Source of the DNA: Isoetes taiwanensis
Lineage: Eukaryota; Streptophyta; Lycopodiopsida; Isoetales; Isoetaceae
Length of the DNA: 64,000 nt
NCBI GenBank assembly: GCA_021234155.1
Contig: JAJEKV010000097.1
Coordinates: 2,519,477-2,583,476, forward strand
Direction of reading: 5' to 3'
Positions within the stretch are counted from its first letter, which is position 1. Each line of letters opens with the position of its first letter. The position numbers and the translations under genes are program-made. Below, in pieces: positions 1 through 55,100 of the stretch. The notes under the pieces were generated by a model that saw nothing but the letters and a program-made list of their open reading frames with translations, was not told the origin of the DNA and searched no databases.

Positions 1-748
1 ACTCATCATAATATAATTTTTACCATTAAGTGGGCGCTTTATGGGCACCCTCCCCTAGAAAAAAGTGCTGCACGGGAGGGTTGCCCTCCATTGAGTTCGC
101 ATGTTTTTATTTTGTTATTTGGTATCAAAGATGTCAACATGCAATGCGCTTGTTGATATGCCAGGAAAGGCATGTAGATTGTCGTCCTTGTAACATGAAT
201 GCGCTTGTTGATATACCAGGGTAGATTGTCGTTCTTGTAACAAAATGTATGGGCTTACTTAATTACTATGAAGTTATTAGTACTTTCTGTTTTCTTCTTA
301 GTTATATTAATTAGCCTCCACAACTTGTGAAATTTGAGCGCTTCTAGATTATGGAAACGAATCCTTTATGTCTATACCATTTAAGAAGGCCCGATATTAA
401 ACAAAGAAGATCCATCACATTAAAAAATATTCTGCCTTTTCATTCAATAGCAACATGCCACATGGCAACTTTCTAATCCAGGAATGTCTATGAACTTTCT
501 AACCGAGGAATGTCTATATGAAGTTCATTTGGTATGTGCGAGGAACTTCTCCGGTTGTTGTAACAGTTTACCTGCTATTCTGGAACTTTTATCTAGTATT
601 CCGAAGCTTTGCCCAAGATTTCAAGTATTTTTGAGCAATTCTACAGCAACAGAAATTTCCTAACTAACTATTCTATTCCATTCTATTCTATTATATTCTT
701 CTATTTGATGTCTAGATGTACATGGAAAAATACCCACATTTTGCCTAT
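1..748 (+). other. Flank of the large transposon; possible LTR-retrotransposon remnant
   Basis: No gene is recognised. TGGTATCAAAG at 120-130 resembles the initiator-Met tRNA primer-binding site that follows the 5' LTR in many plant Copia-type elements, so 1-119 could be an LTR end. A near-duplicate phrase (AATGCGCTTGTTGATAT) occurs at about 145 and 200. A short ATTCT-rich run lies at about 665-700. No gag or pol reading frame follows, so the LTR reading is weak. Confidence 0.3.
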
Positions 749-781
749 GGGTAAATTTATATTGGTGGTGTACAAAAAAGC
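749..781 (+). repeat. Left terminal inverted repeat, 33 bp
   Basis: Identical over 33 bases to the reverse complement of 11363-11395. Similarity stops abruptly after ...AAAAAAGC on both sides. It is preceded by CTAT. Confidence 0.93.
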
Positions 782-2496
782 AGTCCGGGACATCGGGTGC
801 TTGACGGGTGCTGGGGGACCTTCATCGTGACGTGCTGGCACCCGTCACTGTTTTTTTCACTCCCCGCCATTTTTTCCCAACCTCCGGAACGGTTGATCTC
901 GGATCAATTTTGGAGGATCGGCGGATTGTTTGTCCAAGTCAGCGATCCCTGGTATGTAGCAATTCGGATGGTGCTTGGAATTTGCAATTGGCGGGCAAAT
1001 TTTCCAAAGCCTCGTTTGTTTGGCAGAATGCAGCTGCTGCTTTTCTTTGCAGATGTTTTCCAATGCATGCGAATTGGGAAGGCGCATTCCTTCTGGCCAT
1101 TTCTAAGAATGGAACAAGATTTGATCCTGATAATTTACTGTCCAGTTTGCATAATCTTGTACAGCAATCCGAGCAATTTAAGCAGCTGTGTGGTCGGCTG
1201 GCCTCCAAAATTGCTGAGAATACGCCTTATACTGAGCCTTTTGCAAATGTTCCTGATGTTCCAGAACAATCTTTTGGCTATGAACACATTCCAGGTAATC
1301 AGTAGTTCAATAATCAGCAGTTCTTGGGCTATTGAATTTGGTTCTGTTATTGATTTGCTCTTAATTTGCAGAAGATGAGAAAGATACACAGTTTTCACCA
1401 TATGATGCTACAGGTCTTGAATCTGCAGAAGACATTCAAGAACAGCACATGGAGGACCAAGTTGAAGCAGGTCATTGCTTTCATTTGCAATAAAATTTAT
1501 TGCTTAATTTTCAGAAGTTTTATTAATTGCAGAATCTGGAAGAGAGGAAGAAGAGGATTTCTTTGTCCATGAAGACATCCAAGATTATGCAGAGGACATC
1601 CAAGATTATGCAGAGGACATCCAAGACCAGCACATGTGTGACAAAATTGAAGCAGGTTATTGGTGCTGTACTGACTTCCTTTTTGGTGCTCAAGTTATGT
1701 GCACTGTGCTTTATTTTCATAACTGTTGTTATTTGCAGAATCTGCAGCACAAGAAAATTTGTTAATCTATAGGAAAATCGATGCACAGAGAAAAAGGCTG
1801 CAGAGAGCAAGAAAAAGAGCAAGGGAGGCTGAATTGTTAGAAGATGACAGTGCTCTGGAAGATGTTTTGAGCAAGAGAAGGAAACAACAAATGTCCAAAT
1901 TGATTGCAGAACATGCTAATAAGGTATGTGGAAAACTGTCAAAAAAGGAGAGGAAAGAAGTTCTTCAAGGTGCTGCTAAGATGCTGCCAGAATTTGAAAT
2001 GTTGAAATTGAAAGAAGTAGGGACAATGACTAAGATTGTCAACAACTTGAGGAATTCTCTTGCAAAGCATAAGTATGCCAGGTCGACTGATGTGCTTACA
2101 GCAAGGACCTCAGCCATGGTATATGCTGTTGTACCTGGCACTAATATGTAGCATAATAACAGGGGGTTTTCTTTGTGTTTTTGTACGCTTTTTACAAAGG
2201 TTTTCCTAAGATTTCATGGCGTATTCGAATGGATGTACTAATGCGTACATCTAGAGTGCACCATTTCTTAGTCGTTGATTTAGCTCTTTTTTTCCAATGG
2301 TCCAACATCCAAGGGCTCACAACAAAAGCCCTCTTTTTATTTTAGGGGCTGAACATGCACAACAATGATTCTGGCCTCCATAGCCGGCTTTTGCATCAGG
2401 TTTTGCAAGTGAGCAGGCAATGCGAAGGACAATCACAATTCTCATTTCTTTTTCGGGCCCTAAAGCCGGCGCCAAAGGTCTCTTACCTAAATCGCC

Positions 2497-2878
2497 ATGG
2501 CGGCCATGAAGAGGCTCTTAGCGATCTAACTTTGGCCCTGTTGATGGATTTCGTAACAGCGGCAAAGAAACAGGACAAGAATCTGGAAGAAATTACTCAC
2601 AAGATTTATTTTGATGTGGAAATCAATGGGAAGGCAGCAGGTCGCGTGGTTATGGGGCTCTATGGTCGCAGGTCGAGACTGAAGCCACTTATTTACGTCT
2701 TTAGGGCAAAGATCTACGGGATTTATTTCAAATAAGGTTTCCGATTCCCCGTGAAGCTATTTTTGGATCAAATGTGTCGGATCCTGTACTTGCTATCATC
2801 TTCTTCCTCAACCCAACTCAGAGTGGAGCTCCCAAAAGTACTGTTAGAATTGCCGACAGTGGAGAGCTTCCCCTGTAA
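2497..2878 (+). pseudogene. Captured secretory-type cyclophilin (peptidyl-prolyl isomerase) fragment
   Basis: The segment joins the two ends of a plant cyclophilin. From ATG at 2497 there is a hydrophobic signal-peptide-like start, with a frameshift at ATC/TAA. This is followed by [20 protein letters not shown] and RVVMGLYG, the first strand of the cyclophilin fold. After about 150 unrelated bases, QSGAPKSTVRIADSGELPL and a stop at 2876-2878 match the cyclophilin C-terminus. The central barrel, including the catalytic Arg and the Phe/Trp ligand-pocket motifs, is missing. It resembles ER/secreted cyclophilins with a signal peptide (inference). Lying on the coding strand inside the transposase intron, it looks like host gene capture rather than a gene at home. 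It cannot encode an active isomerase. Confidence 0.85.
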
Positions 2879-2929
2879 ACATACTTTGTTCATTTGCTCA
2901 GAAATTATGTTGAGGCGGGTTTCTGCGAA

Positions 2930-4075
2930 TTGGCAACTGGCAGTTCTGAATCCCCTTAGCGGTTCGTCTATATTCTTACCCAAAGCTCCATCTTGCAGGC
3001 TTGATTTCAGTGCTTGTATAATTGCATTGCATGTAGATAAGAACCCTAAAGTTTCCTCCGACAGATCATGCAGCAAGAGTCTTAGGTATAAAGTAGTAGT
3101 GATTTCTTATTGGGAGCTTCCAAAGGAGCACTGTGAATGCAAGCCTCTGGATTGTGATCGCCGTGATACCACTTTTTTGTGGCACATGTGTATGATTCTG
3201 ATGTAGAAAGCTTGGTCCAGCGCAAGGCACAAACAACAAATGTAGTGATGGTGGGATGATCTGTGAAGGAAATTTGCGAAATGGTTATGGTACCAAAACA
3301 GTGCATGAACTATTACAATCAAATGCATGAACTTGGAGCAGATAGAGAAGGTGCTTTGATATTAATACATGGGCAGTTTGCAGGTAAAAATCTCTGATGT
3401 ATCTTCTTCTAAAGGAGACGGGCTTGACTTGTGGCAACTGGCAGTTCTGAATCCCCTTACCGGTTTGTCTATATTCTTACCCAAAACTCCATCTTGCAGG
3501 CTTGATTTCAGTGCTTGTATAGTTGCATTGCATGTAGATAAGAACCCTAAAAGTTCCTCCCAAGCGGATCATGCAAAGAAGAGGCTTAGGTATAAAGTAG
3601 TAGTGATTTCTTATTGGAAGCTTCCAAAGGAGCACTATGAATGCAAGCCTACGATTGTGACCGCCTGTGATACCACTTTTTGTGGCACATGTGCATGATT
3701 CTCGATGTAGAAAGTCGCCCAGCGCGCACAAACAAAGAAATGTAGTGATGGTGGGATGATCCGTGAAGGAAATTTGCGAATGGTTATGGTACCAAAACAA
3801 GACATGGGCGCTTTGCGTGCAAAAATCTCTGATGTATCTTCTTCTAAAGAAGACGGGCTTGACTTGTGGCAACCGGCGATTCTCAATCCCCTTACCTTAT
3901 GATCCCAGAAGGAAATTTGCGTAATGGTACCAAACAAAGGCATGAACTATTACAATCAAATGCATGAACTTGGAGCAGATAGAGAAGGTGCTTTGATATT
4001 AATACATGGGCAGTTTGCAGGCAAAAAATCTCTGATGTATCTTCTTCTAAAGGAGACGGGCTTGACAAGTCACTC
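2930..4075 (+). repeat. Three diverged tandem copies of a 0.2-0.5-kb unit
   Basis: A unit starting GGCAACTGGCAGTTCTGAA occurs at about 2934 and again at about 3434, with a shorter copy from about 3862. Copies share the end phrase GTATCTTCTTCTAAAGGAGA (about 3398, 3835 and 4037). Copy lengths are roughly 500, 430 and 205 bp. The last copy reads openly for about 60 codons but I recognise no protein family. It may be further captured host sequence. Confidence 0.75.
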
Positions 4076-4534
4076 ATGAATAATAGGGCAGAGGCATATT
4101 ATATTATAATCCAGCCACTATCACGCATGGAAATGTTGGATTAGAGGGTCTATTCTGTAATTGTATTATCTCATTTATGGTGATTACTTACAATTCTATT
4201 GCTTCTCTTTAGAGAAATTTTACTGTGAGTATTTGCAATATTTTTTTCCTACTACCTCCATATGGTTCTAGCTTTGCATATTCTGCCCGACCTAAATTTG
4301 AACAATGAGACTAGTGATGGCTTCTAGTAAGTTGCTATTTTCAATAACTCAATAAATTTCTAAATAAAATGCTTTTATAGCATATATAATTATATTACAT
4401 TATGCTTTGATATTATAGTTAGTCATGTTTCATTTCTCTATATTCCCTTTTTTTTTTTTCTTAATGTTTTTTATATTACATAACACATATTGCTACATGT
4501 TTTAGATGTCTTTTATATTCTCACGTCTGTTTTT

Positions 4535-4860
4535 TTTTTAATGGCCCGAAGGGCCAAAAAATTTTTTAGTATAATAACCAACACATAACTACCATTGACA
4601 TTAATAAATATAACCATTGGATCCAACACATTTAAATTAAAATCCCCCTTAAACCCCCTTTGGTTTGGGTGCATATTCACACGAGGGGTGACGTAGGGCA
4701 GCGAGAGCCCTCATAATTGTATTTTGCACGTACGAAATCAACACCATATAGTATTCCGGTTGAAATCTTATAGTATTTTGCGAATCTTGTTATACTGTAT
4801 AGCAAATCTTGTACTTGCATACCCCACAAACGAGGAACTTTACGTACGGTGTAGAAGATA
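4535..4860 (+). mobile_element. Broken copy of the foldback element seen at 59818-60300
   Basis: It starts with the small palindrome GGCCCGAAGGGCC and AAAAAATTTTTTAG. It then shares CCCCCTTAAACCCCCTTTGG, TTTGGGTGCATATTCACACG, GTAGGGCAGCGAGAGC and the downstream spacer (to GTACGGT) with the copy at 59822-60126. Only the left arm and spacer are present, the right arm being absent. It ends just before the transposase exon-5 acceptor. Confidence 0.8.
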
Positions 4861-7356
4861 TGTTACTACAGCAGTTCAGAGAAGGAAAACAGCAGAAATT
4901 GGTGATGGCCCATGGTCAATGTTTAAAAAGAAAACCAGATCTGATAAACTAAGCAGGAAACAACAGAAATTAGTAACTGACATTTGGACTTTTCAGACAC
5001 GAGTTTCACCATGCAAGAAACATGTTATTAAGATTAGGCTTGGTAAAGGAAACAAGATAATGCATGCTCTTCACTTTCTGGAGGAAACTGAGGTTATTTT
5101 ATTTTTGTTTGACATTTATCATTTCATTTCTTCACAATGCTAACTCTTTTTGTTGCTTATAATGCAGTGCACTTTTTATGCAAGATTTCGAAGAGAATAT
5201 CCAAAATTTGAAGTATCTTTCTCATCATTTCGTGCACTAAAACCTCCATTCGTTCGAAAAGTAAAGGATAGAGAAACTTGCTGTTGTGTGTACCACATGA
5301 GGCTTGACTATGTCAGACAAGCACTAAACAAAATTAGGCTGGATAGAAATATTCATGGTGCTGACTGCAGTTGTACTTGTTCTGTCTGTGGTGCTGGACC
5401 GAAATGTGAAGCAAATGCAATGACCTACAAATCATCAAGTGATTTGTGGAGGTCAATTGTATGTGCTAAGGATGTTGCAGATGAGTGGTATGCTCATGAC
5501 TGCATGTTGCTGAAATGCACAACCTGTGGCCCTTCTAAGTTACCTATGTGTCCTAAAGAATTGAGCAAGAGTTCAGGGCATTTGGTAGAATGGAAAACCT
5601 TTGACAGGGTATGTGAAGCATATTAAGTTTTTTCATGTGTGGTAGTCTTAAACTTATTTTGTGGTTGTACTTTTTTCTTCCCAGGTTTTTGAATCAGCAA
5701 AAGAGGTTGATGGCAAAGGTGGGACAAAATTGGTTCCAAAGCCAATTGTGAAGCTTGTATACAAGACCAGTTCAACAGCAGATGTGCTGTCTTATGCCAA
5801 AAACATTGTGACTGAATTCATTCCCCATAACTACGAGGCAAGGTGGCAAGCAAAGCAATTCAGAGAATGTCTAGGCACTTTCCCAGAAAACACTGTGGTA
5901 TCAGTCATAGATTTTGCTGAAAACTATACCTTCAAAATACAGCAGGAAATCCAAAGCTTGCATTGGAGAAATGATCAGTGCACAATACTTGTGCACATCA
6001 GTTACAGGCATGCAACAGAGAGAGAGGTTGAAGAGAAATCTTTCAGCAGTGGTGACAGGCATATCATCAAGGAGACTCATTTTTACATTTCGGATGATAG
6101 AGATCATGACACCTTATTTGTCCAGCACTGTCTAAACAAGCATGCTGATTACTTGGCCAGCAAGTTAGTCAGATACAACAACCATGTAATGTGGTCTGAT
6201 GGCTGCTCACACCAGTTCAAGGGTGCAAGAACATTCTACTTTCTTGGGAGATTCTATAAGAGCTCTGGCATTCCAATAAACTGGAACTACTTTGCTTCAT
6301 ATCATGGAAAAGGTAAATTCAGATCAGTTTTTGATTGGCCTACATTTTGTAAGACAATAGACACAATTGTTTGAATGGCAGGTGAGCATGATGGGGCAGG
6401 GGCTGTTCTCAAGAGAGCACTCACACACGAAATGTTAAAGAGGAATTCCAAGCCTTTACGGGATGCTCATGATGTTGTTCAATTCTGCAGGGAACACTTC
6501 AAGGATTCTGACAAACATAGGTACATTCTACTTCAAGGATTCATGACTGCTGTGACAGTGCTCAATGTTACTCATCAATGTTACTTATTAGACACTACTC
6601 AATGTTACTCATCAATGTTACTTATTAGACGCTACACAATGTTACTCAACAATCTGTGTTTGTAGGTATTTTTGGGAGATCAAGGTGGATGAAGTAAGCA
6701 GGGTTGAGCAGTTCGATTGTGCTACTTTAACAGGGTCCAGTAAATTTCATAGCATCAGGCCAGTGAACTCCAGGGATGCCACTCAAGTTGCACATATGAA
6801 TTACTCATGCTTTTGTCATAATTGTTGGGTGGGTAAATACAGTAAGTGCATACACAAAGATAGGATAGGTACCTGGACGTTTTCAGAATTAAGACCAGGG
6901 ATTGAGGATGATGCTGCACTTGTTGATGGGCCAGTCTATGAGGGAGATGCTGAGTGGAAATCAGATATTATAGATGTAGGAGAGAACTTTTGCGTGGGTT
7001 GCTCCAAAGAGTAATAAGGAGAAGGCTGATTTCTACATCTTAAAATGTACTTGTACCTAAGCATGTTGTAGAGAAAGCATACAAAGATCCTTGGGGACAA
7101 AAATTTGGGAGGAGGGAAGTGGTGGTCACAGCAAGTTTTATAAACCGTGGGAGACAAAGCAGTATGAACTACTTGAATATGAGCCGATCAGCAGTGTTTA
7201 CTGATCACTTAATTGTCTCCCCGCAATTTTGACATGAAGGATATAGGACATAATATGTTTGAATTGGAGGATGATGTCCATGAAAACATACTTGAAAGTT
7301 TGCAGACGATTCACATATACTAGCCCAATGTGATGTTGCCGGTAACAACAATCTAA

Positions 7357-8190
7357 ATGCGTGCAAGTCAACAGAGCAAGTCAACGATAAGACAACAGAG
7401 AAGACCGGCAGTAAGTCGCCAGAAGAAGGCTAGTAAGTCGGCGAACAAATCAGCGAGGCAAGTCAACAGAGAAGACAAAGATGCAAGTCAACAGACAAGT
7501 CACAGCCCCAAATCAACGAGGCAAGTCACAAACCAACTCAAGAGTCAAGTCAACAGCCAAGTCGTGAGAAAAGTCAGCAAAGAAAGTCACAGAAAAGTCG
7601 TGAGAGAAGTCCGCACCAACTCAACAGCCAAGTCAGCAGACCAAGCCATCGGCCAAGTCATCACCAAGTCATCACCAAGTCACAGGCAAGCCAGCAGCCC
7701 AAGTCATCACCAAGTCAAGAGTAAGCCAGCAGCCAAGTCGGCAGCCAACTCAATGTACCAACTCAATGGCCAACTCATGTCCATGTCGTGACCAACACAA
7801 CGACCAAGTCGTGACCAACTCAACTCAATGTCGGAACAAGTCAAGAAACAAGTCAAGTCAACCAACAATTGAACAATTGAATAATTGAATAATTGAATAA
7901 TTCATTCATTCATTCAATGTAACATTCAGTCATTGTAACATTCTTATTCAATGTAACATCCATTCATTGTAACATTCTTATTCAATGTAACATTCATTCA
8001 TTGTAAGATTCTTATTAGAATATGTTATTCACAATGTTATTTACTTCATTATGATATCTTACTAATGTTATTAACTTCATTATGATATCTTACTAATGTT
8101 ATTAACTTCATTATGATATCTTACTAATGTTATCTTACTTCATTCTTATTAGAATATGTTATTCACAATGTTATTTACTTCACTATGATA
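7357..8190 (+). repeat. Short-period satellite block inside the transposon
   Basis: 7357-7870 is a degenerate array built on AAGTCAACA / CAAGTCA units of about 7-10 bp. 7870-8030 has TTCATTCATTGTAACATTCTT-type repeats. About 8030-8190 has repeats of about 34 bp containing TTATGATATCTTACTAATG. The Lys/Ser/Gln-rich open frame across 7357-7791 is a by-product of the repeats rather than a likely gene. Confidence 0.85.
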
Positions 8191-8329
8191 TCTTACTAAA
8201 GTTATAAACATGGGGGTATACATTAAACCTTATACATACAGTATACTTGCTTTATTACTTTACCAAGCAATGTAGTGTGGTGTGTGGTCACATGTCCAGT
8301 TGGATGCTGCCTAATGGTGTGACGTTAAA

Positions 8330-8800
8330 ACTACTATCTATCTATCTATCTATCTATCTATACATACAGTATACTTGCTACATATCTTATACATATAGTA
8401 TACTTGCACATACAGTATCTTATACATACAGTATACATACAGTGTACATATAGTATACTTATACACATAGTATACATACAGTATCTTATACACACAGTAT
8501 ACATACAGTATCTTATACATATAGTATACATACAGTATCTTATACACATAGTATACATACAATATCTTATACATACAGTATCTTATACATACAGTATACA
8601 TATAGTATACATACAGTATCTTATACACATAGTATACATACAGTATCTTATACATATAATATACATACAGTACACATACAATATACATACAGTAGACATA
8701 AAGTATACATACATTATACATACAGTACACTTGCACATACAGTATCTTATACATACAGTATACATACAGTATATCTTATACCTTATACATACATTCATAG
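8330..8800 (+). repeat. (CTAT)n and TATACATACAGTATCTTA minisatellite
   Basis: A pure CTAT run at about 8334-8362 is followed by about 430 bp of variants of TATACATACAGTATCTTATA. The repeats keep long Tyr/Ile/Val/Cys-rich frames open on both strands. These frames have no independent coding evidence. Confidence 0.9.
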
Positions 8801-9051
8801 CTTAAGTAGCACATTACATTTCAAAATAAGTGTCATATACAAAAATTTTCTCAGCACATAAGTCTGTTCCAACTCACAGCACATAAGTGAGTCATATATC
8901 AGCACATGAGGGGGTCATACAAGTAAGTTCTATACAAAATTTATCTGGATGTCCTCATGGCATCCAAATATCAGTTAAAAAAAGTTTTTTAAACTATCGA
9001 TGTTCAAAGAATCATAGATTAAACTTTTTTCTCCGACTTCACCCTATTTTT

Positions 9052-11050
9052 TTAAGTAGGACTCACCCAATAGTCGTCATTCTCGGCTTCATCATCAGGA
9101 GACGATACAGGATCAGCAGCCTCTGCTTGTGGATTTGGGAGTGCTGTAAAAAGAAATGGGCACATAATTAAATTTGTGTCGAGAACATACTTCAAATAAA
9201 AATGTCAAGCAGATACTTACTAGGTGTTGGCAGTGTCTTCTCGGGAGAAGCTAATGTACTATCTGGCAAATCCAGCATCAAATTCTTAACTGCATTGCTT
9301 GGCCAAACATAGTGCTTGACACTTGTTTCTACAGTAAAAAAACATAAACAGTTGCATTAGAATTTGAATTAAAATACCACAACATAAGCACCTTATAGAT
9401 TTAACATCCACAATACCTTGACATTTGCTGCTCATTGGACTGCCAAAGCCTTCTTCATCAGCCTCCCCAATCAGTCCCTCAAGCACCAGGTCCTTGGCTA
9501 CATCATTCACGACTGCAAATTACACTATAAGAATTAAATACATGCATTAAATAAGAACATACAAATGCAAAGCAATACCTTTCATCACAGGTGACTTTGG
9601 ACTGCTCTTGTCTTCATCTTCATCTGCATCTAAACAAATAAAAAAGCAGCAATTAGAACTTAAGTGAAGCAAATAAAACATGAAGCAAATTCAACTTAAG
9701 TACAAGACTTACCCTCTGTTACCTCCTTTGCTTGCTGCTTTTTCTTGGCACTCCTTGTGACCCCTTTCTTGAATCTTCTTTCAGGGACAGGTGCTTCTTC
9801 AGATGCACTGCTGTCTGATGAGTCTACTACCACATGCTTCCTCTTGTAAGGAAGAACCTTTGGCTCCTCAACTTCTGTATCACCTCCTGATTCCTGTTCT
9901 TCTGATTCCTCGGGTACATCTAATTCAGTGACATGGCCGAGCTCAAGCAGCAGTGCATGTGGCACTGATTCATTGCATCCTGCAACCAGACAGTGCATGC
10001 CAACTAAAACAGCTCCAAAGCATGCCACTTATGGTTGCACTTGAGCTTCACAAGCATGCTGTAATCTTCAGAAAATTGCAGACCACAAAGTTCACATGCA
10101 TCAGAAGTAGCACAAAGGGGGAGGTTATAAATACCCATACTGATCCGCATCTCCTGTAATTTCTTGTTGGTCTTCAAAACATTGACTTGAGTGGCCCTCG
10201 AATGCCATGATTCAATGCTGTGCTCGTAAGACTTCACATCACGTTTCAGCTGTGAAATTTCTTCAAAGAGTCGAGAATACATCCCTACCCATGCCTCGAA
10301 GCGTGTCCTCCAGAAGCCCCCTCAGCAGGTCCTCTTCACACTTAAAACCTGCTGCTTGCTTTTCATAGTCTTCATCACCTTTAGCAATCCTTTGCAAGTC
10401 GCATCTAAGCTTGTACTTCTCTTCGATGGCATCTGCTAAACGGTCGCAGTATTGTTTAGAAATAGCCATGCTGCCTTCCATCCTTAGAGCTTCCTCTTCG
10501 ATCTTCACGAGTCTGCTCTCCCTCCGCTTTCATCTCCGGTTTCTAGTCCCGCTCATGAGGCTCGATATATTCACAAAAAGCATTCAAAGGGGTTTTCTTC
10601 GACTGTTTCTTCAACGAATCTTTGTAGGAGTCCGCTGCAAATGAAGCCCAATTCACTAAGTAATCCTTCTTGTTTGATAAAGCTTTGCTTGTATCCTGCC
10701 AAGCAAATGCCCTTCGAACAGAGTCCGAACCTCATTGTTTACGGTTTTTCCGGTACACCTTGTGGACAAGCTCTCCCAACTCCGACCTAAAAGCTGGCCT
10801 GACCAAACTGATCTTCATTTTGCCATTCTCTAATGGACTGCTCCAAACCTGCAGCCAATCAGACTCACTCACGTCCTCGGGCTTCAACTGTTTTGGCTTT
10901 TTCCCATCTCCACATAAGCCACGAAAAGTGGCGAACTCATACTCTGTTCTAGCCACCTAAGAAGTCAGTAATGTAAGACAAAACAAAGTTAGAATTCAAA
11001 GCTAACCCAAAAAAAATCGATTATTTACCTTCTTCAAAGATGTAATCCAT
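9052..11050 (-). pseudogene. Second transposon gene: coiled-coil / zinc-finger-like protein, damaged
   Basis: Read on the - strand, good GT/AG junctions give a multi-exon gene. A short first exon (11050-11029, or a frame reading WITSLKK) leads to 10956 onward (ARTEYEFATFRGLC). The frame is then interrupted by a TGA near 10732 and a TAG near 10548, with a frameshift near 10510. The protein continues through a Glu/Arg-rich coiled coil and a Cys/His cluster (CELCG... LKCNHKWHA) resembling a RING/ZZ-like finger. An acidic Ser-rich tail follows, with small exons near 9718-10010, 9585-9632, 9419-9513, 9222-9328 and 9052-9144, ending DDYWVSPT and a stop at 9052. Inferred phases match across the last four introns. 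It is divergent from and convergent with the transposase. A DNA-binding or regulatory partner is possible, but I do not recognise the family. Confidence 0.6.
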
Positions 11051-11362
11051 GGCTGTCACCGAAAAAGCAAGGCGCCCGATTGATTGAAGCACTAAGCGCT
11101 TGATCGGAATGAGAAAACTAAGCGCTTGGACGGAATGAACAAACCCAAAACTGAGATCTGCAATTAGGCTACGAAATTTCGTGATCATTGAGGATCATAG
11201 CCAAGGCAATTCGCGCGCATTCCGAGGCTCGTCGGAACCCTTTCGCGATGATTCAGTGGCAGACTTCATTCCTGCCCGTCGCCAGTCTTCAATGAACCGT
11301 ACGACCCGTCGAAGGCAAAAAAGCAGCGCTCGGACGAGGTGCTGACGCGCTGCTGGAATTTC

Positions 11363-11395
11363 GCTTTTTTGTACACCACCAATATAAATTTACCC
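11363..11395 (-). repeat. Right terminal inverted repeat, 33 bp
   Basis: Perfect inverted copy of 749-781, followed by the CTAT target duplication at 11396-11399. Confidence 0.93.
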
Positions 11396-11399
11396 CTAT

Positions 11400-13288: not shown

Positions 13289-16200
13289 TCAGATCAATAC
13301 TTTCTTCTCTTGATCAAGAGAAGAACAATTGTAAGCCATAACAATTTTATTTTGCGCCCACTGAAGGACAATCTCATCTGCAGTATCTACGCCCTGAAAG
13401 ATAAACAACCTCCTTCTCTTCTAGATTGACCATAAAAGCCAGCCACATGCAAGATGAAAAGCCCGTTTCCGTAATTTGGGCCAAGCATCAGGATAGATAG
13501 CAAGCAAAATTTGCTGGCTAGATCTAAACGTGCCAAATAGGGTGAACAACCAAGACCATGTCTGCCGAAGCCGCTCACACAAGAAAAAACAATGCTCAAT
13601 ACTCTCAACCCTTTGTTGGCATAAAGGACAGAGCTCTGAAATCCGATTATCCATTTTATGGACTAACTTGTTGACTCTGAGGCATCTATGGATCACTTGC
13701 CACCACAGAACTACTACTTTGGGATGAAGTAGCTTATCCCATACCCATATCCAAACACTTTTCCATTGTGGCTGAGGGACCTGAAGATGCCACCTATTAG
13801 ATGGAGGCAGGATTTCAGAATGCAAAAGCAATTTATACACAGACAGAAGACACAAACCGCCCTGGCTGAATATCCTGATGGCAATCCCATACGACTACCT
13901 CAATCTGTGGATCAGAATCCTGTGGCAACACTGCAGCAATATGATTCCAGATTACTCTGTCCCATCTGTACAATAAGAACTTTGTTCTAAATGCTTCCCA
14001 TGACATGAGATGACCAGACTCATACCAAGCTGCAATAGTGCTGATACCAGCTGCTACCCATCGTCGTTGAGTCTTTGGATGAACAACCACACTTAGAGGC
14101 ACATTCTCTGGAGTGTCCTGCAACGGAATCCACCAGCATGGAGCGGACAACTGAAGACATGCCTCAGGATTAATATGGAAAAGAGACCTGACAGTGTCCC
14201 AAGCAACAAGCAACCCCTTCAGAAAGGGAGAAGCATTAGGATACGGATGCATGTGATAAAGCAAAGCCCAAGAAAGGAGGGGCTTAATGGTTGCCTTATG
14301 GAATGGGAGACAATGCTGAATCGACTGCACCAACAACCTCAGGCCAGGAGAATCATCCTTACCAATGAAAATCCTCCAAATGAACTTTGATATCATCACC
14401 TTGCTTTGGACATGAAAATCCAACATACCAAGACCACTAGCTGCCTTAGGTCTAATGCATTTCGCCCAAGCTACCTTGACCACCGCTCCTAACTCATTTC
14501 CACCCCAAATAAAATTTCTGATGATACGCACAATCTCCTCCATCTTACACTGCGGAGCTAATAGAGCAGACGCCATGTAGACATGAGTATTACTAAGAAC
14601 ACATTTAGCCACAGTGATTCTACCGGGCATGGACAATTTAGCTGTATTCCACCAAAACAAGTGCTTTTGCAACCCACTAATGATTTCATCCCAAGCATTT
14701 GAAGCAGAGACGTGAATTCCAACAAGGATACCAAGCAACTTTGTGGTATGGCCATGCAGAAGAATCTTCCATGGATAGTCCAAAATACAGGGAGGGATGG
14801 GACTGTTCAACGTCCACAAAGCTGTACATTTTTGCCACCCTACAAGAACTCCTGATGCTAAGGAGAATGTGTCTAATAATAGCTTAGCATTACGAAGATT
14901 CGCAGCCTCGGCAATTAGGAACAAAAAAGTATCATTGGCATATTGGTTACATACCTCTTGAGAACCATCGTCCATTGGGAGGCCTTGAATAATGCAATCT
15001 TGGGTAGCGACGGAGAAGAGCTGGGATAATACTTCTGCCACAATTGTGAAAAGCAAGGGTGCTAAGGGACAACCTTGGCGAATTCCTCTACCCACTACAA
15101 AAATATCCGATGGCTCGCCCTGGAAAAGGACAGTAGATCTGGCTGATGTATGGAGCTTCATAACATTCCTTGTGAATGACTCCCCAAACCCAAGTGCAAG
15201 AAGACACTTCTCCAAGAAACCCCAATCAACACTATCATAAGCTTTAGCAAAATCAAGCTTAAGATACACTGCTCTATGACCCTGCAACCGAGCCCAATAT
15301 ATTCCTACATATGCAGCAGCCACGTTGTTGAGAATACAACGACGAGGGAGAAAGCCAGATTGTGTTGACGAGATAACATCAGCCAAGATATCTCGGACTC
15401 TTTCTGCCAATGTCTTAGCAAAGATCTTGTACACAGAGGAAAGCAATGTAATAGGTCGCCAGTCAGAAATAGTCTTGGGTTCCTTGCTCTTTGGAATGAG
15501 AGAGATACAACCTGTATTCAAAATCTTATCAAGGCTCCTAAATCTCTGAAACTCACAAAAGGCATCATATATGTCATCCTCCAACCAGTCCCAACACTTC
15601 TGAAAGAATTCAATAGGAAAGCCATCAAGACCCGGGCATTTGTCCCTTTTCAAAAGCGCCACAGCTGCTTTTAAGTCCTCCTTCATGATATTAGACTCAA
15701 GAAGCAACCTCTGCTCTTCAGAAACAATGCGACGCACCTTAGTCAACACGGCCAATTGCATGTCCTTCTGAAAGGGCAATGGGTGTCGTGCAAAGAACGA
15801 AGAAAAGCGATGATGAAAATACTGCTTAAGATTCACCGGATCGGAGATAAGATCGCCATCTAGCAACACCAAAGAATGTATAGAAGTGGCGAGTTTCCTT
15901 CTTCTTGCAGTCGCAAAAAAGAACCGGGTACATCTATCTCCGTCCTTGAACCACTGCAACCCTGCCTTCACTTTGGCTTCAGTAACTTTTACAGTTTCCA
16001 TAGCCTTGATCTGAGATAATAACTCCTTTTCTCTGACTCCACTAGTATGGCCACGAGCGCGGAGTACTTCTAATTCCTAGTATAATGCAGTCAATAGTCC
16101 TCTAGCTTCAGCAGCTCTGACTCTCCCATATTCTTTTGCAAATGACTTCACTGCAGACAACGCTGCGACAACCCCAGACATGCCCCTACGAGGTGAGAAG

Positions 16201-17018
16201 GCCCGAGACCAAGTTTGACTATAGCCAAGTTTGAACTCATCATCCTCCAAATACTTGCAATTAAGCTTAAAGTAGGTCCTGATAGGTCGATGACAATTAG
16301 CCACATCATTAGTTAGAAGTTGTGGATTATGATCAGACACGGAGCTATCCAGAAGATTTGAGCGACGAAAATTCGCTAGCCGAGCAGCTGCACAAGTATT
16401 AAAGTATCCTCTATCATGCCTTGCATAAGCTCTGCCAGCTCCTGTCCAACCATTACACCACGTAAATGACTGATCACCATCAATCTCTATAAGCTGACCA
16501 TCATGTAAAAGGCGTAGCCATTGTTCTCGCTCGAATCCTTGCACCACTTCAGAGCCACGACCACTTCTATCTCTTTCCGACTCGACCATATTGAAGTCGC
16601 CAACGAGCAACCATGCAACGTTCTGCCCAAGCTGGAGAACTTTACTCCTCAAAGTTGCCCACAAAGCACCACGCTGACGAGGTCTATTATGAGCATATAC
16701 ATTTATCAAACCCCATTCTTGGCCCTTATCTTTCCATTTGATTATTATCCACCGCCAACCTATCTGCTTGAGTAAAAGTGACATCCACGATGACTTCCAT
16801 GCAAGAAGCACACCAGCCTTAGATGCATCAGCAGCCAGACACCAAGACATTATAGTCCCGGCCCAAATACATTAGCTACTTTATGTACATTACACAAGGC
16901 ATTTATGCTCTTGGAGGCAACAAAAGGTCGTAGAAAACTTAGACAGGTAAAGAGACAACCTGCTTCTTTTACTTGGGGAAGAAGCCACTCCCCTCACATT
17001 CCAAGACAACAGGTTCAT
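13289..17018 (-). pseudogene. L1 ORF2: endonuclease, reverse transcriptase, zf-RVT
   Basis: The start ATG at 17018-17016 gives MNLLSWNVRG, the typical first strand of the APE endonuclease, then CLQEHK, after which the frame is broken. The long frame from 16850 has VGDFN and SDHNP endonuclease motifs. A TAG near 16079 separates it from the RT frame (16001-13833). There, the RT palm motif reads YANDTFLF instead of YADD, a codon change of GAT to AAT. The C-terminus lies in another frame with [12 protein letters not shown] and CPLCQQRVESIEHCFF, the zf-RVT zinc cluster. A further TAG replaces Trp in WSIW near 13427, and the family end is near 13289. About 1,240 codons if repaired, normal for plant L1. 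Confidence 0.88.
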
Positions 17019-18698
17019 GTGGCCAAAATATTATGTTCCACCTCCATACCAATAGAGCCAGCCTCAACCATGTCCATCTTGCATGGTTCTGAAGGGAGGT
17101 CAGCCCACCTCGTCCTGGAAATTGGCAAGGGGGAGCCTCCTCTCTGTTCCACCCTTCCATTGTTTTGTTCAGCACTTGGTGAGGGAGAGCCTCCTCTCTG
17201 CTCTACCCCCCCTTTATTTTGTTGGGTAACTGGCAAGGGAGAGCCTCCTCTCTGCTCCACCCTTCCAAGCAAATTATCAGAATCGCTCATGGCATGAGAC
17301 ACATGTTGACTAGCCTTATTGCACGCAGCTCTTTTCCAATTAACATTTGTCCATCCCTCTTGGGCATTTTCATGATGCGCTTGAACATTTTCATGCCGCT
17401 CTTGCAATTCCTGGATCTTCTGTAACTTAGCCCTAGCATCCTCTTCAAAAGCGGGAGTATGCGATAGTGGTTTTAGCAGCAGATGGAGTAGCAACAACAG
17501 AGGTAGCAGTAGCATTGGCAGAAGGGATAACAGAGGGTAAAGGGGACACAACAGAGGTAGGCGGCATAAGGGAAGAAGGGACCATTGCAGGGCGATCTCT
17601 CTTAGCACAAAAATTTGCAAATAAAGCAAGTTGAGGAAATAAATCAGCAAGCTGAGGGCCATTGAGCAACTGCAAAGCATACTTCAGAAAGATAGGGCCA
17701 CTTTTCACAACCACACAGTCAGGAAGACCGCGAAGAGAAACACAAATTTTAGCACCATCAACAATAGAATGGGCCAGATGAGTACCCAGACCATTAGCAA
17801 TACTGATAAGAAACTCCGGCACCAAGAGATCAGGAGGAAGATTAGGAATAGAAAACCAACATGGCATCCTAAGAGCAGGAGTCGTACCAGGAGAAAATCC
17901 AGGCGAGTAAGGCTGGTACAAAATATAATCACTCCACATTGGGTCCACACCACGTGCCACCAGTTGCTCCACCGCTACAGCATCATCAAAAACGATCAAA
18001 AAGAACTTCTTATCCAACATCTTTAAAGTACGATAAGGTGGCAACCCTAATCTCCGAAGATGACCAGTCAACCAATAGCCAAGCTTCCTACTGTCAAGAA
18101 ATGCTCCATTATATTGACCAACCACACTAAACGACAACAAGTTACTAATACACTTCTTGTGTAAGTCATGATCAATCTCGACCACATTGTACCCAGACGC
18201 TTGAAGAGTATTCTTACACATTTCAGGCTGATAGAAAACTTCAACAGAAGGTAACTGAAGCTCCAACTGAGTCTCCTTTGCTCGCAACTCACCCAAAAGA
18301 TTACTGAGATCTCTTTTATTATCCTGAATCATCACATCAGTAGCTGTAGCAATACGCGCAGCAGACGTAGTTGATGACAAGTCCTTCTTGATCCAATCAC
18401 TAAAGCGCTCCCTGCTAGCATTTACTCCAGAAGTTGAGGACCTCCAAGGAAGTGAAGGGGACTGATCTTTGTTAGAATTGGCACCAGTTGGCGCCGAGGC
18501 ACCATCCACAGAAGCATTACCGCTATTCAAAGCACTTGTACTCTTCGGTGCACCAGCCGAGGGCGCCAAAGCAGGAAAATCACTGTCTTGAAAGACATTC
18601 TCACTATAAGCCAGAGGGTTAACATGCATCGCCAAATTTGCCCCCTGCACCTGCATGGATACAGGAGGTTTTGCAGGCAGCTTGGAAGTTGACGCCAT
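17015..18698 (-). pseudogene. L1 ORF1 (nucleic-acid-binding protein), one frameshift
   Basis: The first part (18698-17445, 417 codons, MASTSKLPAK...) includes the DUF4283-like region of plant L1 ORF1 proteins: KKFFLIVFDDAVAVEQLVARG, then MPCWFSIPNLPPDLL. Near 17450 the frame shifts. The continuing frame gives a helical Glu/His-rich stretch (LQELQERHENVQ-type) and three copies of GRVEQRGGSPLP. Its TGA at 17017-17015 overlaps the ORF2 start in the sequence ATGA. No CCHC knuckle is obvious. The protein would coat the LINE RNA in the known family. Confidence 0.8.
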
Positions 18699-19734
18699 AG
18701 AGCCGAAACTGTCAGGGCCAAAAAGACTATCATCCGGAACCTAAAACTTGCGATGCCACACACCGTTGGAAAGAGCTCTGAATTAGCTTTCCAACGATTC
18801 TATTCCATCAAACCAGATATAATCATACATCCAATTTTGATTTTTTCTTTTTCCCATAGCTAATTTTTCGGGGTTCTGCCTCATGCGGATATTTTGGTTT
18901 TCAATTTCTTTCAGATGTAAGCAAGTTCGATTTCTTCGGCTGTAAGCAAGCCCTGAATTATAACCAGAAGAATATATAATGACGCGATCAGATAAAGACA
19001 AAACTTGGACACACAGACAAGCACGATCATATGAATTTAGAGCGAAGGAGGTATGTGTCAAATTTAAGATTTTGTAGTTCATTCGTGCTAAGTATTCATA
19101 CAGGCTTTTCAAAAATCATTTCAATTTCATAATTCAGATTGAAGGCTTACTGTTCCTCTCAATTTCTATATCTAAGCGTATTCAAAAAACTATTTCTGAG
19201 ACTATTTCTATGCCTATTCTTCAGCACCTATTTGCTCTAGCTCCCTGTGCAAACAAAAAAAACACAGCTTATTTCGCCTCTGTATTGTGGTAAGGCTCAT
19301 GTGATTTGGCTCCCTGTGAAAAACTGCCTTTATCCATCCAGCTCCATCGCTGCTTCGCCAGTCTGCTTCGCCTTTCGTGAAGCCCCCATGCGTATCTTCC
19401 TGAAGACCTCCAAAGATCTCTTAGAATTACCTTGCCTTATGTAAACTTCTGATACCGAGGGATTTGTGCTATTGCTCCCTTGGATTCAGCAAATTTGTTT
19501 GATCTCCTGAGGGGCCAAGCCGCAATTCAGTCTGATCACATGATGCCGCCGATCACAAGTTCAAGTCCCAATTTTCGGCCTATGCAGCTCGATCCAGCAT
19601 GATCCGACCTCCGTGTTTGAGAAAAGCTCTCCGCTATCATCCGTCGTTTCATTCTAAAAAGAAATATTCCTTCCAAATAGCAGATCTATTAAACCTAGAT
19701 TATTTTACTCTCAATTATTTAATATAATATTTTT

Positions 19735-41700: not shown

Positions 41701-44700
41701 TTGGCTCAAAATGGAATTACTACTTTAATAAGATTAGAGAGCTTGTGTTTGCATCTACAAAGTACACTATAAAAGTAAATCCATATCCACATTTAGGTAG
41801 GGTTTCCTTGCTTAATAAGACACCTACAAATATGTAATGTTCGGGCAGAGGATATTCCAATTATAGGTTCCCCTTCTTGAGCTCTTCAAAATATGAAGAG
41901 TTTGCTTGAAATTGTTGTTTGCTACTACTGCATCAAACTAAACAGCCACTGCTCTAAACCATTACATTAGAAAATGTGCCAACGCAACCAATTTCACTTT
42001 GCTTGCTCGAACGAGGTCACCAAGCCCTTACTAGCAAGCCCTTACCAGGCAAAATTGCCTGCCTTAGCACATTATCGACCACACTCTATAACATAGTGTG
42101 ATGTAAGACTTGTATAAATACCTGAGATGATATTTGATAGTGCTATGGAATGTGAAAATCTAGGTATTGACTTCTGTTGGGGGTAGGGGGGCAGGTGCAA
42201 CGAATGACAATGATAGTATGGCTAATATCGCTATTGGTTCTAGGCATAGACCCTTATGGGTGCAACAAATGAAATGCTATTTAGAATTCCTATAATTAAT
42301 ATTGTTTTTTGTTATAGGTCATTATAATGTATTTGTTTGCCATGATATAATGCTCTCCGCTCCCTTGGAATGATGTCCGTGCTTATCGAAATGCTAAGTG
42401 CCATGACCTCCAAGATGAATTGTAAGTGGATTTGTCCATCGAAGGGCTTGGAAATGAACTTCTCAATATGGCTATAAAATGAACTGTAAGTGGATTTGTC
42501 CATTGAAGGGCTTAAAAATGAACTATATACGGCTATAAAATGAACTATAAGTGCATCTGTCCATCGAAGGGCTTCAAATGGAACTTTTCAATAAGGCTAT
42601 ATCTTGCACGATGTAGCGATTCATAAAATGAAACAGTCATCTAAGTGGCTTTAAACACAGTTTTGCATTTTAGGGACTCAAGTCACTCTAATTTATGTGG
42701 CACGTGTCATAAACCCAACGGTTGACGCCAAGCATGTTCGCAAAAAAATAGAATGTTAGTAAATGGAGTTCTTTAAGTAGAAACGAAACATTTCCATGTG
42801 GTGACATATCATTGAAACATAAAGTAGAACACATATCATTGGAAATATTATTCGCTCATTATGTGGCACGTGGCATAAACCCAAGGGTTGAAGCCAAAAA
42901 TGTTCTCAAGAAAACACAATGTTAGCAAATGGAGTTCTTTGAAAATTCCTAGAAATGAAACATTGCCATGTGGCAACATATTATTGGAAAATAAGGTAGA
43001 ACGGAGACTAAATGATTTTTGACATAGCTGAGGTTTCATTTACCTACTTAGGTAGATGTTGCAACCATAGATACACAATCTAGTCTTACATTCTTATCTA
43101 GGCAATTCTAAGATGTCCTACAGCTAGATTGGCTATGCCATATAATCAGCAGAGCAATAGGGGCAAGATAAGCCATGGTTTCCAGCGCCTCTGTTGGTTA
43201 TAGTGAAAAATGAAAGAAAGGGCCTTTGACGGCCGTGTTCTGCGCCCTGTTCTGAGCATTGGCTATGGCGGCTAGTGGGCTTACTCTGTGGTCTGGCGTT
43301 TGGGCGATGGCGGGATTAACAAGCATAAAGAGTTCGAGCTTATTTCTGGGGCGCCAAAGAAAAACTTCCCATCCGAAGAAAAATCATGGTATATTCTATT
43401 CCCTCTTTCCACTTTTGGTAATGATTTCTAGCATTTTTACCTTTGATTCTTCCTCTGCAACCTGTATCAAATCGATTTTTGCATTTTTTTTGCATGATTT
43501 TGTTGATTCTTGCATCCTTTTTCTTCTATCTGAAACCTGTAGTACCATGATTCTAGCATCTAATTGGCAATGCATACCAGAAATTGCCAATGCCAATGCC
43601 AATGCAAATGCGGAGCATAAGCCTCCGGCAGCAGAATTGGGCGCAAAGGGGGCATTTGGAAACAGGGGCAACCACCAGCAACACAGAGGGCATTCTCATC
43701 GCTTCCGACCCTCCGCCATCTGCTCTGCGCCTTACCCGCCAGCTGCTCTGCGCCTTGGCCGACCCTGCCGCGGCCAAGCGCAAATGGGTCTACTTTTTCG
43801 AGGTCCAGTTCATCCCCGAATCTGATCTCAAGGCCATCGATGCTCTTTGGCGTTCCTGTAGCGGTGATAAATTTGGTTACAGTATCCAGAGACGGATTTG
43901 GAAGAGCTGTAACAGAGATTGGGACCTTTTCTTCAGAAAAGTCAGGTGGACGCGAGCCCTTGATGAGCGTAATGACGCCTACAAGATATTCCCCACGGAA
44001 TTTTGCTGGGATGCTTCGGATTCTACGCCAGGTCACCTCCCTCTTACCAATGCTCTCAGAGGTATCCAGCTCCAGTATAATTATCGTATAAATAGTATGG
44101 CGCAAATATTGAATCTCATTGGGTACCATGATCTTAATTTGTCGGTATAAGTGGTCATGTACAAACAAAATCTCGGCACTATAGTTGTATATGAGAATGT
44201 ACGCAAACTGTAACTAACTTTGAAATCTACTTACTATTTGTCTCATCACATATAGGCAGTTTGTAATATTCCATTATTTTTAGGGTGTATTATTATTTCG
44301 CGTGTTCTAAATTTATTCGAGACCATTAGATTGCAGTAGTTTATGGGGAATATTCTATGTTGGGCACTCTAGACCATTCCTGCAAAGAATATGGGGTCGA
44401 ACAGGCATGTCTTGACTTGCCTCACAGTATGTGAACTGCAATCAACATACATCTCTATAGTCGCATCTCAAGGATGTCCAGAATTGAGGTATATTCGACT
44501 TAGCACAATTGCGGCCGCCGCGATAAACTTCTTGTAAACATAATTGCCATTCCCAATGTGAATATAGTTATTAATATATACCTAATGTGTATGTTGAAGT
44601 GCAATATGTCTATAGCGACTCCTAAGGTACCTATCTCATGCTTCTTGCAGAAGTTTTAATGATAGTTCCAACATCATAACAAATATTGATCACATTGAGA

Positions 44701-47528: not shown

Positions 47529-48172
47529 GTTTGCGGAATGGCGCCAACTAACCATATGAACCATTTATTTACTGCTGGAATGGGGCCCGTTATAACACAG
47601 ACCAAGTTCATTATACTTGACCAGCTGGAATGGGGCCCGTTATCATACAGACCAAGTTCATTATACTTGACCAATTTCTTTGGCCTACTTGACACCTCTG
47701 CCATAGAAAATGTGCTCTCTCACCAAATCCAGCTATTTCTCCATGAGATAACTCAAAGATTTTCCAAGGGATGAGTGCACCTAACCAGTTGGAGACAAAA
47801 TAATTAAGAACATTGTCCTAGTAAAGTGAATGAAAGCTCAATAGTGAAATTCGATTTTGAATTCAAATTGAAGGTAGGAGTTAAACGCCTCCCAAGTTGC
47901 CCCTTATTTCGGATTCTAGTGGAACAATCACCACTTTAAAGTTGGACCCATCTCATAAGTGAATGAATGAAAGCTTAGCCACTTCTCAATTAAAGATATA
48001 AGACATGACCTTCAATGCTTGGTCCAACCATAGGACCTTAAGGCTACGTTCGAGGTCGCTGGTTCATATATCAACATCAATGGGGATTCTAAATTCTATT
48101 ATGCCCTAAGGTTACAAGTTCAAGATTGGCTAATATCGATCATGTCGTAATGGCCTTTTCTACTATACTAGA
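47529..48172 (-). promoter_or_regulatory. Upstream region of the receptor kinase with a 50-bp tandem doublet
   Basis: 47574-47623 and 47624-47673 are two copies of a 50-bp unit (GCTGGAATGGGGCCCGTTAT...), differing at about two positions. It lies within 150 bp of the start codon, in the promoter or 5' UTR. Each unit has GGGCCC, a TCP-factor-like core. No clear TATA box was identified. Beyond about 47680 nothing distinctive is seen up to the TIR element. Confidence 0.45.
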
Positions 48173-52143: not shown

Positions 52144-55100
52144 GAGACCAATTAGCCTATGGGACCCAAACAAAAGAGAGCAAAGCGTTTATTACCGACG
52201 TGATTAAAAACCCCGCCCATACGAAGGGGTTTTCGAGGGAAAAACCTTAGCAATAATAAGCATCTTTGGCACACCGCACAATTGCATAGGACAGTTCAAG
52301 ACCGTCCCCTAGGACACAAACGAGTCCGTGCATCCATAACTTCACGGAGGTATGACCCCAACAAACCCACCGACGTAGTCAATAATCGATGCAACGGCCG
52401 CCGGGGACTAGTAGTCGAACATACCTCTCTGGATATGGGCAAATGCCGGGCGGATCTGGAGGGTATGACATTCATCCTCAATCCATACCGGTGGCAACAC
52501 CGGCAAAGCCTTTGCTCGTGCTTCCCGAGCCCAACGCCTGTTTCAATGGAGGCGATGTGCACCCGTCTTGGATGGAAGCTATAAGTCTGCGCTTCTTCAT
52601 GGGCGGTTTGGGTGTACAAGTATCTTGGTGTGGGCCTCTTGTGAGCCTAGGATTGACTTGCTTGCGATAGTGTGCCCGGCTTAACGTCGCGTCGAGCCTC
52701 GCATCCCGAGCTTGCGAAGGAAAGTAGCATCTAGGTACGGTTTAAGTGCCTCGCGATCTTTCTTTGTCCCGACACGGACACATCTGTTTTGCTCCTGCGC
52801 CCGGCGTGAGAACCACCGAGCTTGCTTGTCTTTCCAGCCAGGATTTCAGGCGTTGGGGACCCATCAACGTGGCCAAAGCAAGATGGGGCAAAGCGTGTAT
52901 CAGCCATAGCGACCACCTTTTGAGGTAAACGATATGGCGTTCCAATGCGGCCCGAAGGGGTAGAAAGCCCGTCTCTCGGGTGATCAGTGCGGGCTGTGGA
53001 CTTCACCCCGGGCCCGTGCCAAGAAGGCCTTCTGCACCTGCTCGAGGTCATTCCAGGTGCTGAGGGATATCACCGGACCCCACAAGGACCGGCTCAACCA
53101 AGGCCCGAAACAAATGTGACTGGTGGCCCCAGGCGTACAACTCTGCCTTGTGGCTGTTGTTCTGCATGGCATATAGTGCTTTCCAACCCGCCGTGTCCCG
53201 CAATCTAATAGCCGCATCCCAATGGGTGGTAGTTGAGAACTCAATCCCCAAGTACTTGTAGGTCGGAGCCACCTCTACCTCTTGCCCCTGGTAAGTGAAG
53301 GTGGGAAGCCCCAGGTCGACGGACGATGCAACTAGCGAAGACCCTAGTTTTGGCCAAGTTAACTCGCATGCCAGTGAATTGGCAAAACGTGTCAAGAGCA
53401 TCCAGGTGACGCTGCATGTCCTCTGGAGTATAGGCCATGAGGTTGACATCGTCAGCATATATGAGTTGCCGGATTGTGTGATGCATGAGATGTGTGCCCG
53501 CGCCTCCATGCTCAGAGAGCCAATCTTCCAACTGATCAATGTATAGGCCAAAGAGTGTGGGGGAGAGGGGGCAACCCTGACGCACTCCAATGCTACTGAT
53601 TACCGGCTGTGCTGCTGATGTGATACGGCCTGAGCATGCCTCGTACAGCCTATATACTGCATTCTGCAAGTCCAGGGGGGTCCCCAGCTGCACAATCCCC
53701 GAGCTTGTTGCGGGTATCGTGTCGAACGCTTTTGCAAAATCGACGAAACAACGATCGATGTGTTCTCTTCGCGGCGATTCTGCTATCCTCAATCAATGTG
53801 CGCAGAGTGAAGATATGATCAATGGTGGAATGTCTGGGCCGAAAACCTGCCTGTGTAAGAGCTCGCACCTCCGTTTCCTCTGCCCATATTGTCAGCCGCT
53901 GCTCAAGGATGCCAGCTAACAGTTTTGCAAAGAGAGAGCTGACCATAATAGTACGGTAGTTGGCCGGGCATTGAGGGTCCCCTGCTTTGTATATGGGCAC
54001 CACTCTGCTAGTGGTCCATTGGCGTGGGGAAGCCTTCGCAATGCTTTATTGAACAATGCCGCGAGGACAGGCCCAGCACGAGGCCCAGCCCATTTCGAAG
54101 TTACGCTGCATGCCATCTAAATCTGTTTGCCTTCCCATTAGCTAGACACCGTGTAGGCCCATGATAACATCCCCTACGTGATAACCATGCCTATCGTGGA
54201 GGGATTGGTGCCGACCTCGAAAGGGTCGCATAACAAGCTGTTGCAATCTACCGTACCCATTGCTCGAGGTGATATTCCCCGTGGGTCGTGCGGGCTTGCT
54301 CAAGACCCTTCTCCGAGAATGTCCCGGGTGCCGGGTTGGTCGAGACCAAACATCATTCTTCGATGCTCATGCGAGGTATCCGCCTTCTTATTCTTGAGAA
54401 AGGAGCGGTATTGGATGATGGCCTTGTGGGCGGGAGATGGGATCAATGACTTGCCGGAGTGTGCGTTGAGCTCGACACTCATCATCAAACCATTTGTTGC
54501 GGCGAAAGGTGGTAGTGCACGTGGTTCGCCGTGGCGGCCTCTCCCAAAGCATCTTTCGGCTGTACCGCCGGCGGTAGGTGAGTCACCTCCAGATTGCTCT
54601 TGAAGTGTGGGGAGTTGCGGCAGTCCCGCCAGATCATGCTCAAGCGGTGGGCATAGGTCCCCGCTGCGGTCGTAGTCCAGTAGCAAATGGGCACCCGGTG
54701 TGTTGAAGCAAAGCGGCAGTGCAGGGGAGCCTCCCAATGGAGATGCATGAACGAGGGGCGGTGGTCCGATCTACTTCCTCGTCCCAAGTGTCTGCGTCCC
54801 GATGGAAAAATGAGTAACCAAGTGCATCCCGTTCCTCAACCCGGCAGATAATCCACCACACCGAGCCGCCCCCTTGGTTCTCCCCGCCTACAAGTGTAGC
54901 AACCGGAAGACGGAAGGCGGCCATTGTGCCAACCCATTACAAATAACCGTGTTAAAGATACTACCCGGCAACAACAAGCGCACGCCATAGCACGAAATAT
55001 GGTCGTCATCCGATATCCTTGACCAAGCCACCTCTGCGGGGTTCAACTGCAAGACGCCCTCCGCGGGGGGTCAAATTTTGGAACCCGCTTTCGGCTCCCC

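Follow-up and report, generated by a model that had tools for sequence, protein, structure and literature searches.

What kind of mobile element occupies positions 749-11395 of a 64,000-nucleotide stretch of the Isoetes taiwanensis genome (assembly GCA_021234155.1, contig JAJEKV010000097.1, positions 2,519,477 to 2,583,476 of the forward strand; this whole stretch is called the window below), and where does it belong among the known superfamilies of DNA transposons? The preliminary description had taken it for a DNA transposon with two genes, perfect terminal inverted repeats (TIRs) and a 4-bp target-site duplication (TSD), which held, and had called it far larger than ordinary elements, which did not. 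The window element is a single member of a multicopy family of cut-and-paste DNA transposons, and cut-and-paste movement of the family is well supported. We consider it probable, with good confidence, that the window holds a broken copy of a two-gene element that encodes a DDE/D enzyme and an accessory protein and that belongs to Sola or a close sister group; by TSD length, size, TIR and acidic residues, this is the most likely home of the family.

The two termini of the element are formed by GGGTAAATTTATATTGGTGGTGTACAAAAAAGC, a 33-bp inverted repeat whose two occurrences, 10.6 kb apart, match perfectly, and CTAT lies directly outside both of them, as had been noted before (Table 1). When the first 352 and the last 352 bases of the element were searched against the assembly of 1,658,258,908 bases in 1,110 contigs, the left end gave 40 matches (the best 40 of 225 candidates were scored) and the right end gave 41 (the best 40 of 104 candidates were scored). 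When up to 3 mismatches were allowed, a pattern of 30 TIR bases matched at 79 places in 1.66 Gb and its reversed control at none. The other copies with the same TIR, for which a search had been proposed, are thus many, and the copies examined ended at the same termini, save for a few damaged ends. The 38 TIR sites with 0-1 mismatch gave 14 pairings within 60 kb, two of which have their right end in common with another, and the remaining sites were partnerless within that set. The shortest paired span was 7,518 bp and therefore there are no miniature elements among these 38 sites, nor did the TIR occur there independently of the internal genes. In L012, L013, L015, and L027/L028 the left terminus is GGGTCTTTTTTT or GGGTGTTTTTTT and the right terminus is AAATTTACCC, and these unlike ends suggest that ends have been exchanged between subfamilies. 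In L048, two right ends lie 136 bp apart (165-301) with the same 22 bases after each, as though the terminal stretch and its flank had been duplicated.

When both ends were compared in the window copy and 19 other copies, an exact 4-bp TSD was found in 15 of the 20 and its sequence varied: CTAT in the window copy and L009; TATA in L010, L013, and, once the end is shifted by one base, L020; AGAT in L011; TATG in L012; TACT in L014; TAAT in L015; CTAA in L016; GGTG in L021/L022; TTAA, once among the copies, in L023/L024; GTCA in L025/L026; CCTA in L027/L028; and CATG in L033/L034. When the flanks of L011 were joined with one AGAT and used as a query, 196-200 of the 200 bases aligned (95-98%), with no extra bases, in all 40 places scored (the best 40 of 2,475 candidates). 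This shows that uninterrupted, that is empty, sites exist for L011. CTAT-like duplications and empty sites had both been anticipated; the duplications were borne out, and the empty site was obtained for L011 but not for the window copy. L011 and L019 share their position and AGAT within a repeat of 2,475 first-look candidates, and the pair is probably a duplicated composite.

The size of the window copy is explained by a nested insertion. At 17 of 26 loci, which align on both sides of the insertion but lack it, the alignment skips from window positions 2042-2145 to 4852 or 4913. In the eight other full copies that were displayed, the space between the borders of 2146-4851 holds 32 nt, apparently coding, in five, 25 nt up to window position 4913 in two, and 54 nt in L017. 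Because the uninterrupted copies read on in frame across this point, as judged by eye, and because the diverged relative L069 aligns across it in a single stretch, 2146-4851 is a nested insertion in a transposase exon, and this 2.7-kb insertion is why the window copy measures 10.6 kb. An earlier gene model in which 2119-4834 was the fourth transposase intron was dropped after comparison with the other full copies. Nine of these are 7,518-7,912 bp long, which lies inside the range given for the majority of Sola elements (2-9 kb) and takes away the claim of unusual size. L013, which is rearranged, has 7,022 bp, L018 and L020 also fall short of the nine, and several pairs exceed them. The insertion itself is a composite, in which 4545-4850 is similar to 47821-48126 and parts are found again in L045. 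At about 2590-2670 it has a short cyclophilin-like stretch that was seen by eye only and has no Pfam match, and a foldback element at 59851-60299, with 134-bp arms that are 96% complementary, has sequence in common with 4591-4753.

The first gene encodes the spliced DFAENY-type protein that had been predicted, and its introns have GT-AG borders. Across 11 aligned family proteins (11 of the 21 extracted), D76, D172, E211, and D213 are invariant and lie in the motif series IDFAENY...WSDGC...HGKGEHDG, E211 and D213 both being within GKGEHDG. A GKGxxDG motif may be shared with animal proteins, which would favour a DDD reading of the catalytic residues. L070 and L071, 52-56% identical to one distant member, retain IDFAEN, WSDGC, and HGKGEHDG. 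In the genome search with a single exon the best 150 of 8,313 first-look candidates were scored, and the distant-member query gave 182 matches, the best 150 of 9,332 candidates being scored. In the 6 of 231 exon 7 pairs (22 sequences) with a synonymous divergence (dS) of 0.1-1.2, the ratio of nonsynonymous to synonymous divergence (dN/dS) was 0.05-0.14; judged from the sequences of these 6 usable pairs, the presumed transposase is under purifying selection.

The second gene, opposed to the first and spliced as the preliminary description had it, is broken in the window by an in-frame stop and frame changes, with 8 TGA and 2 TAA codons within the genome-search match. Other copies have long frames of this gene, with 297 aa in L014, 310 aa in L015, and 327 aa in L011, and a CxxC...CxHxxHxxC zinc-like pattern is visible by eye in the second genes of L015 and L069. 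The genome search with this gene gave 154 matches (the best 150 of 1,930 candidates were scored); identity among the matches listed was 32-100% and many had no stop inside the match. When the 150 listed second-gene matches were compared with the 150 listed transposase matches, a second-gene match lay no more than 15 kb away from 38 of the transposase places, and in 37 of these 38 the two genes were convergent, the exception being C191. Conversely, 41 of the 150 second-gene matches were no farther than 15 kb from a transposase, when 0.003 would be expected per match. Both lists hold best matches and the other 112 transposase and 109 second-gene places are no evidence against linkage. The one diverged relative on which a wider comparison rests, L069, is an element of 7,668 bp (230-7897) with GGGTGCTTTTTTTTT at its start and its end, ACCA on both sides, and both genes; identity is 68% for its transposase exon and about 31% for its second gene. 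Therefore, the GGGT ends, the 4-bp duplication, and the two convergent genes reach beyond the subfamily of the window copy.

Table 1. Features of the window element and of its immediate borders (window coordinates).
Feature	Position	Strand	Basis or remark
Left TSD, CTAT	745-748		Direct reading of the letters
Left TIR, 33 bp	749-781	+	Same terminus found in other copies
Transposase exon 1, predicted start codon	1063-1294	+	GT border, open frame
Transposase exon 2	1372-1470	+	Gene model
Transposase exon 3	1533-1655	+	Gene model
Transposase exon 4, first part, broken by the nested insertion	1739-2145	+	Gene model, copy comparison
Nested insertion composed of other repeats	2146-4851		Alignment to other loci
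Transposase exon 4, second part	4852-5092	+	Gene model, copy comparison
Transposase exon with Cys-rich motifs	5168-5608	+	Gene model
Transposase exon carrying the first (IDFAENY) and second (WSDGC) acidic residues	5685-6312	+	Gene model, alignment
Transposase exon with HGKGEHDG­AG (third acidic residue, E or D)	6382-6520	+	Gene model, alignment
Last transposase exon, Cys/His-rich	6666-7014	+	Gene model
Tandem repeats and low-complexity repeats in the interval that separates the genes	7350-8800		
Second gene, about six exons, borders by eye, frame broken as written	9052-11050	-	Coiled coil, RING-like zinc site, acidic C-terminus
Right TIR, 33 bp	11363-11395	-	Same terminus in other copies
Right TSD, CTAT	11396-11399		Direct reading of the letters

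Several observations weigh against a Sola-like two-gene transposon. The TSD agrees at 3 of 4 bases in L017, L029/L030, and L031/L032 (in the latter two pairs with the left end shifted by one base) and at 2 of 4 in L018. L019 is flanked by AGAT at either end; its right end is damaged, and since its host site is the same as that of L011 its TSD is not independent. The empty sites of L011 were judged by alignment through the junction and not from the individual letters at AGAT. For the window copy, the search for an empty site found none: it returned the copy's own flanks, a duplicate of the left one, and some short matches of partial length, two of which span query positions 45-123 at 78%, and none convincingly crossed the junction. 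In the transposase, the third catalytic residue is ambiguous between E and D, as E211 and D213 are both invariant. Sequence searches of Pfam, PHROG, and PDB with the exons, the spliced protein, and the alignment gave no significant match that would speak for a transposase fold, and the single-sequence AlphaFold model, with a mean predicted local distance difference test score (pLDDT) of 36, was unusable. In the second gene all matches to Pfam RING models were below the cut-offs, the best being zf-RING_2 with 14.9 bits against 27.3.

Given the small errors and the near-duplicated stretch that the assembly has, one could argue that the inverted repeat at this locus arose by chance or in assembly, but the 79 TIR matches against none for the control, the TSDs, and the empty site refute this reading and we give it practically no weight. 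As to the superfamily, Kolobok elements duplicate TTAA at their target, hAT elements 8 bp, and PIF/Harbinger elements 3 bp. The target duplication of piggyBac is also TTAA (PMC7351741), that of MULE is 7-12 bp, and that of Tc1/mariner is the 2-bp TA (PMC10741241). The TSDs found here vary (CTAT, TATA, AGAT, TACT, GGTG, GTCA, CATG etc.) and are TTAA just once, and piggyBac and Kolobok were therefore rejected; the length of 4 bp rules out MULE and hAT as well as Tc1/mariner and PIF/Harbinger. MuDR, Harbinger, and En/Spm resemble the present family in having two genes, for a transposase and an accessory protein, which in MuDR are likewise convergent, but their target duplications have other lengths. 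The literature behind our other comparisons (PMC3627910, PMC10741241, PMC6786969, PMC6890710, PMC8566536, PMC9033089) was available in part, and what is said from it holds for those parts. Sola elements are described as having a DDD enzyme, a 4-bp TSD, a size of mostly 2-9 kb, and TIRs of 11-1124 bp, and as present in the moss Physcomitrella and not common in flowering plants (PMC10741241); they have also been reported from Azolla and Ceratopteris. The family agrees with Sola (Sola1, Sola2, Sola3) in its 4-bp TSD (15 of 20 exact, ACCA in L069, and the 40 of 40 scored places for the joined flanks of L011), in its 33-bp TIR, in the size of the nine other full copies, and in acidic residues compatible with DDD. 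On this likeness of features membership of Sola is putative, and the family differs from Sola as described in having a conserved, convergent second gene for a coiled-coil, RING-like protein.

The family might instead form a superfamily of its own, so far undescribed and characterised by 4-bp duplications, GGGT ends, and two genes that are both obligate. In support of this, Pfam, PHROGs, and PDB sequences gave no significant match, scans of viral and prokaryote contigs gave no confirmed relative (their peptide patterns are family-specific and distant kin could escape them), and the available literature on Sola, RING finger, and second open reading frame does not mention such a gene beside Sola. 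Nor do the listed titles and openings of abstracts on Sola in fern, moss, lycophyte, or Selaginella, or with RING or a second open reading frame, describe this element. However, the libraries may hold no Sola model, in which case absence from them means little, and Sola is matched in the length of the TSD, in size, and in the acidic motifs, so that we regard a separate superfamily as unlikely, if worth keeping in view. We think it rather unlikely that the element carries the second gene as a passenger, captured from the host and dispensable for movement. Many host proteins have RING-like zinc sites, the matches here being below threshold. Eukaryotic transposons do carry passengers: the Sola2-Fanzor elements of social amoebae, which resemble the present family in a 4-bp AT-rich TSD and two proteins, encode an 888-aa protein, putatively a Sola2-type transposase, and, as second protein, Fanzor1 (PMC3627910). 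The parts of those elements that encode Fanzor1 vary between families, whereas the RING-like gene here is kept across lineages, in the same orientation to the transposase in 37 of the 38 linked pairs and down to 32% identity, and many of its matches have no internal stop, all of which speaks against a passenger. The coiled coil of this protein gave a sub-threshold match to Rootletin in Pfam, and no piece of the gene had a match above the curated cut-off or a convincing one in Pfam, PHROGs, or PDB sequences.

With a two-gene transposon of Sola or a close sister group as the preferred reading, a probable scheme of movement can be drawn. As an RNase H-like DDE/D transposase, the first protein would bind to the 33-bp ends, cut the element out, and open targets of weak specificity with a stagger of 4 bp. 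Its partner, with a coiled coil and RING-like zinc site, would be an accessory factor that may, for example, assist in assembly of the complex, have ubiquitin-related functions, or bind the ends. The window copy would depend for its mobility on proteins from other copies.

How far the damage in single copies is real has to be considered with caution. In the second-gene region (9052-11050) of nine close copies (L009-L017), deviations from the column majority were counted: substitutions amounted to 13.8% at CAG/CTG compared to 4.0% elsewhere, and were also raised at CCG/CGG (9.5%), and deletions to 2.0% compared to 1.2%. The middle A read G in 74 of 450 cells in CAG but in 3 of 486 in CAA. Changes of the deamination type were also frequent: in CTG, 44 of 333 cells had C to T, and in CAG, 41 of 450 had G to A, compared to 12 of 486 with C to T in CAA. 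L012 and L015 had little or no CAG/CTG excess. Deamination of methylated sites can explain part of this but not the changes of the middle base. Nanopore R9.4.1 reads are subject to basecalling errors at methylated CHG sites, and the fit of the middle-base changes suggests such errors. The Isoetes assembly is based on Nanopore R9.4.1 (PMC8566536). L072, which lies upstream of the element on the same contig (C1108) at a distance of 25.9 kb, is a near-duplicate of the left flank and the start of the element, and possibly an unpolished assembly duplicate. Its 100 bp adjoining the element are identical to the window and its element part differs by about 16-18%; it differs at 56 of 117 CAG/CTG positions, at 94 of 735 other positions, and at 17 of the 400 flanking positions 323-722. 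Since the differences cluster at CAG/CTG, the frame breaks in the second gene of the window copy may in part be artefacts, a category into which the nested insertion does not fall. For the same reason dating of the copies by divergence was rejected. Neither age nor intactness should be read from single copies, whose frame damage may be partly artefactual.

Elsewhere in the window, a LINE-like element (13836-18740, minus strand) has matches to reverse transcriptase and DUF4283 and a weak one to endonuclease, another reverse transcriptase lies at 53244-53792, and a GUN4-like gene at 43557-44147 (Pfam E 9.1e-37) is an ordinary plant gene. Scans of the window for Rfam families and for tRNA genes gave no match.

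No word beginning with 'transposon' or 'Sola' occurs in the main text of the paper on the Isoetes genome (PMC8566536). It is conceivable, though we would put it forward only as a doubtful suggestion, that the family stands for a large unnamed two-component lycophyte lineage, marked by 4-bp duplications and GGGT ends, in which a coiled-coil, RING-like partner has been obligate, together with an unclassified DDE/D transposase, since a deep divergence. With at least 150 transposase matches and a linked partner gene, the family would be a good system in which to study the role of an accessory protein in Sola-like transposition.

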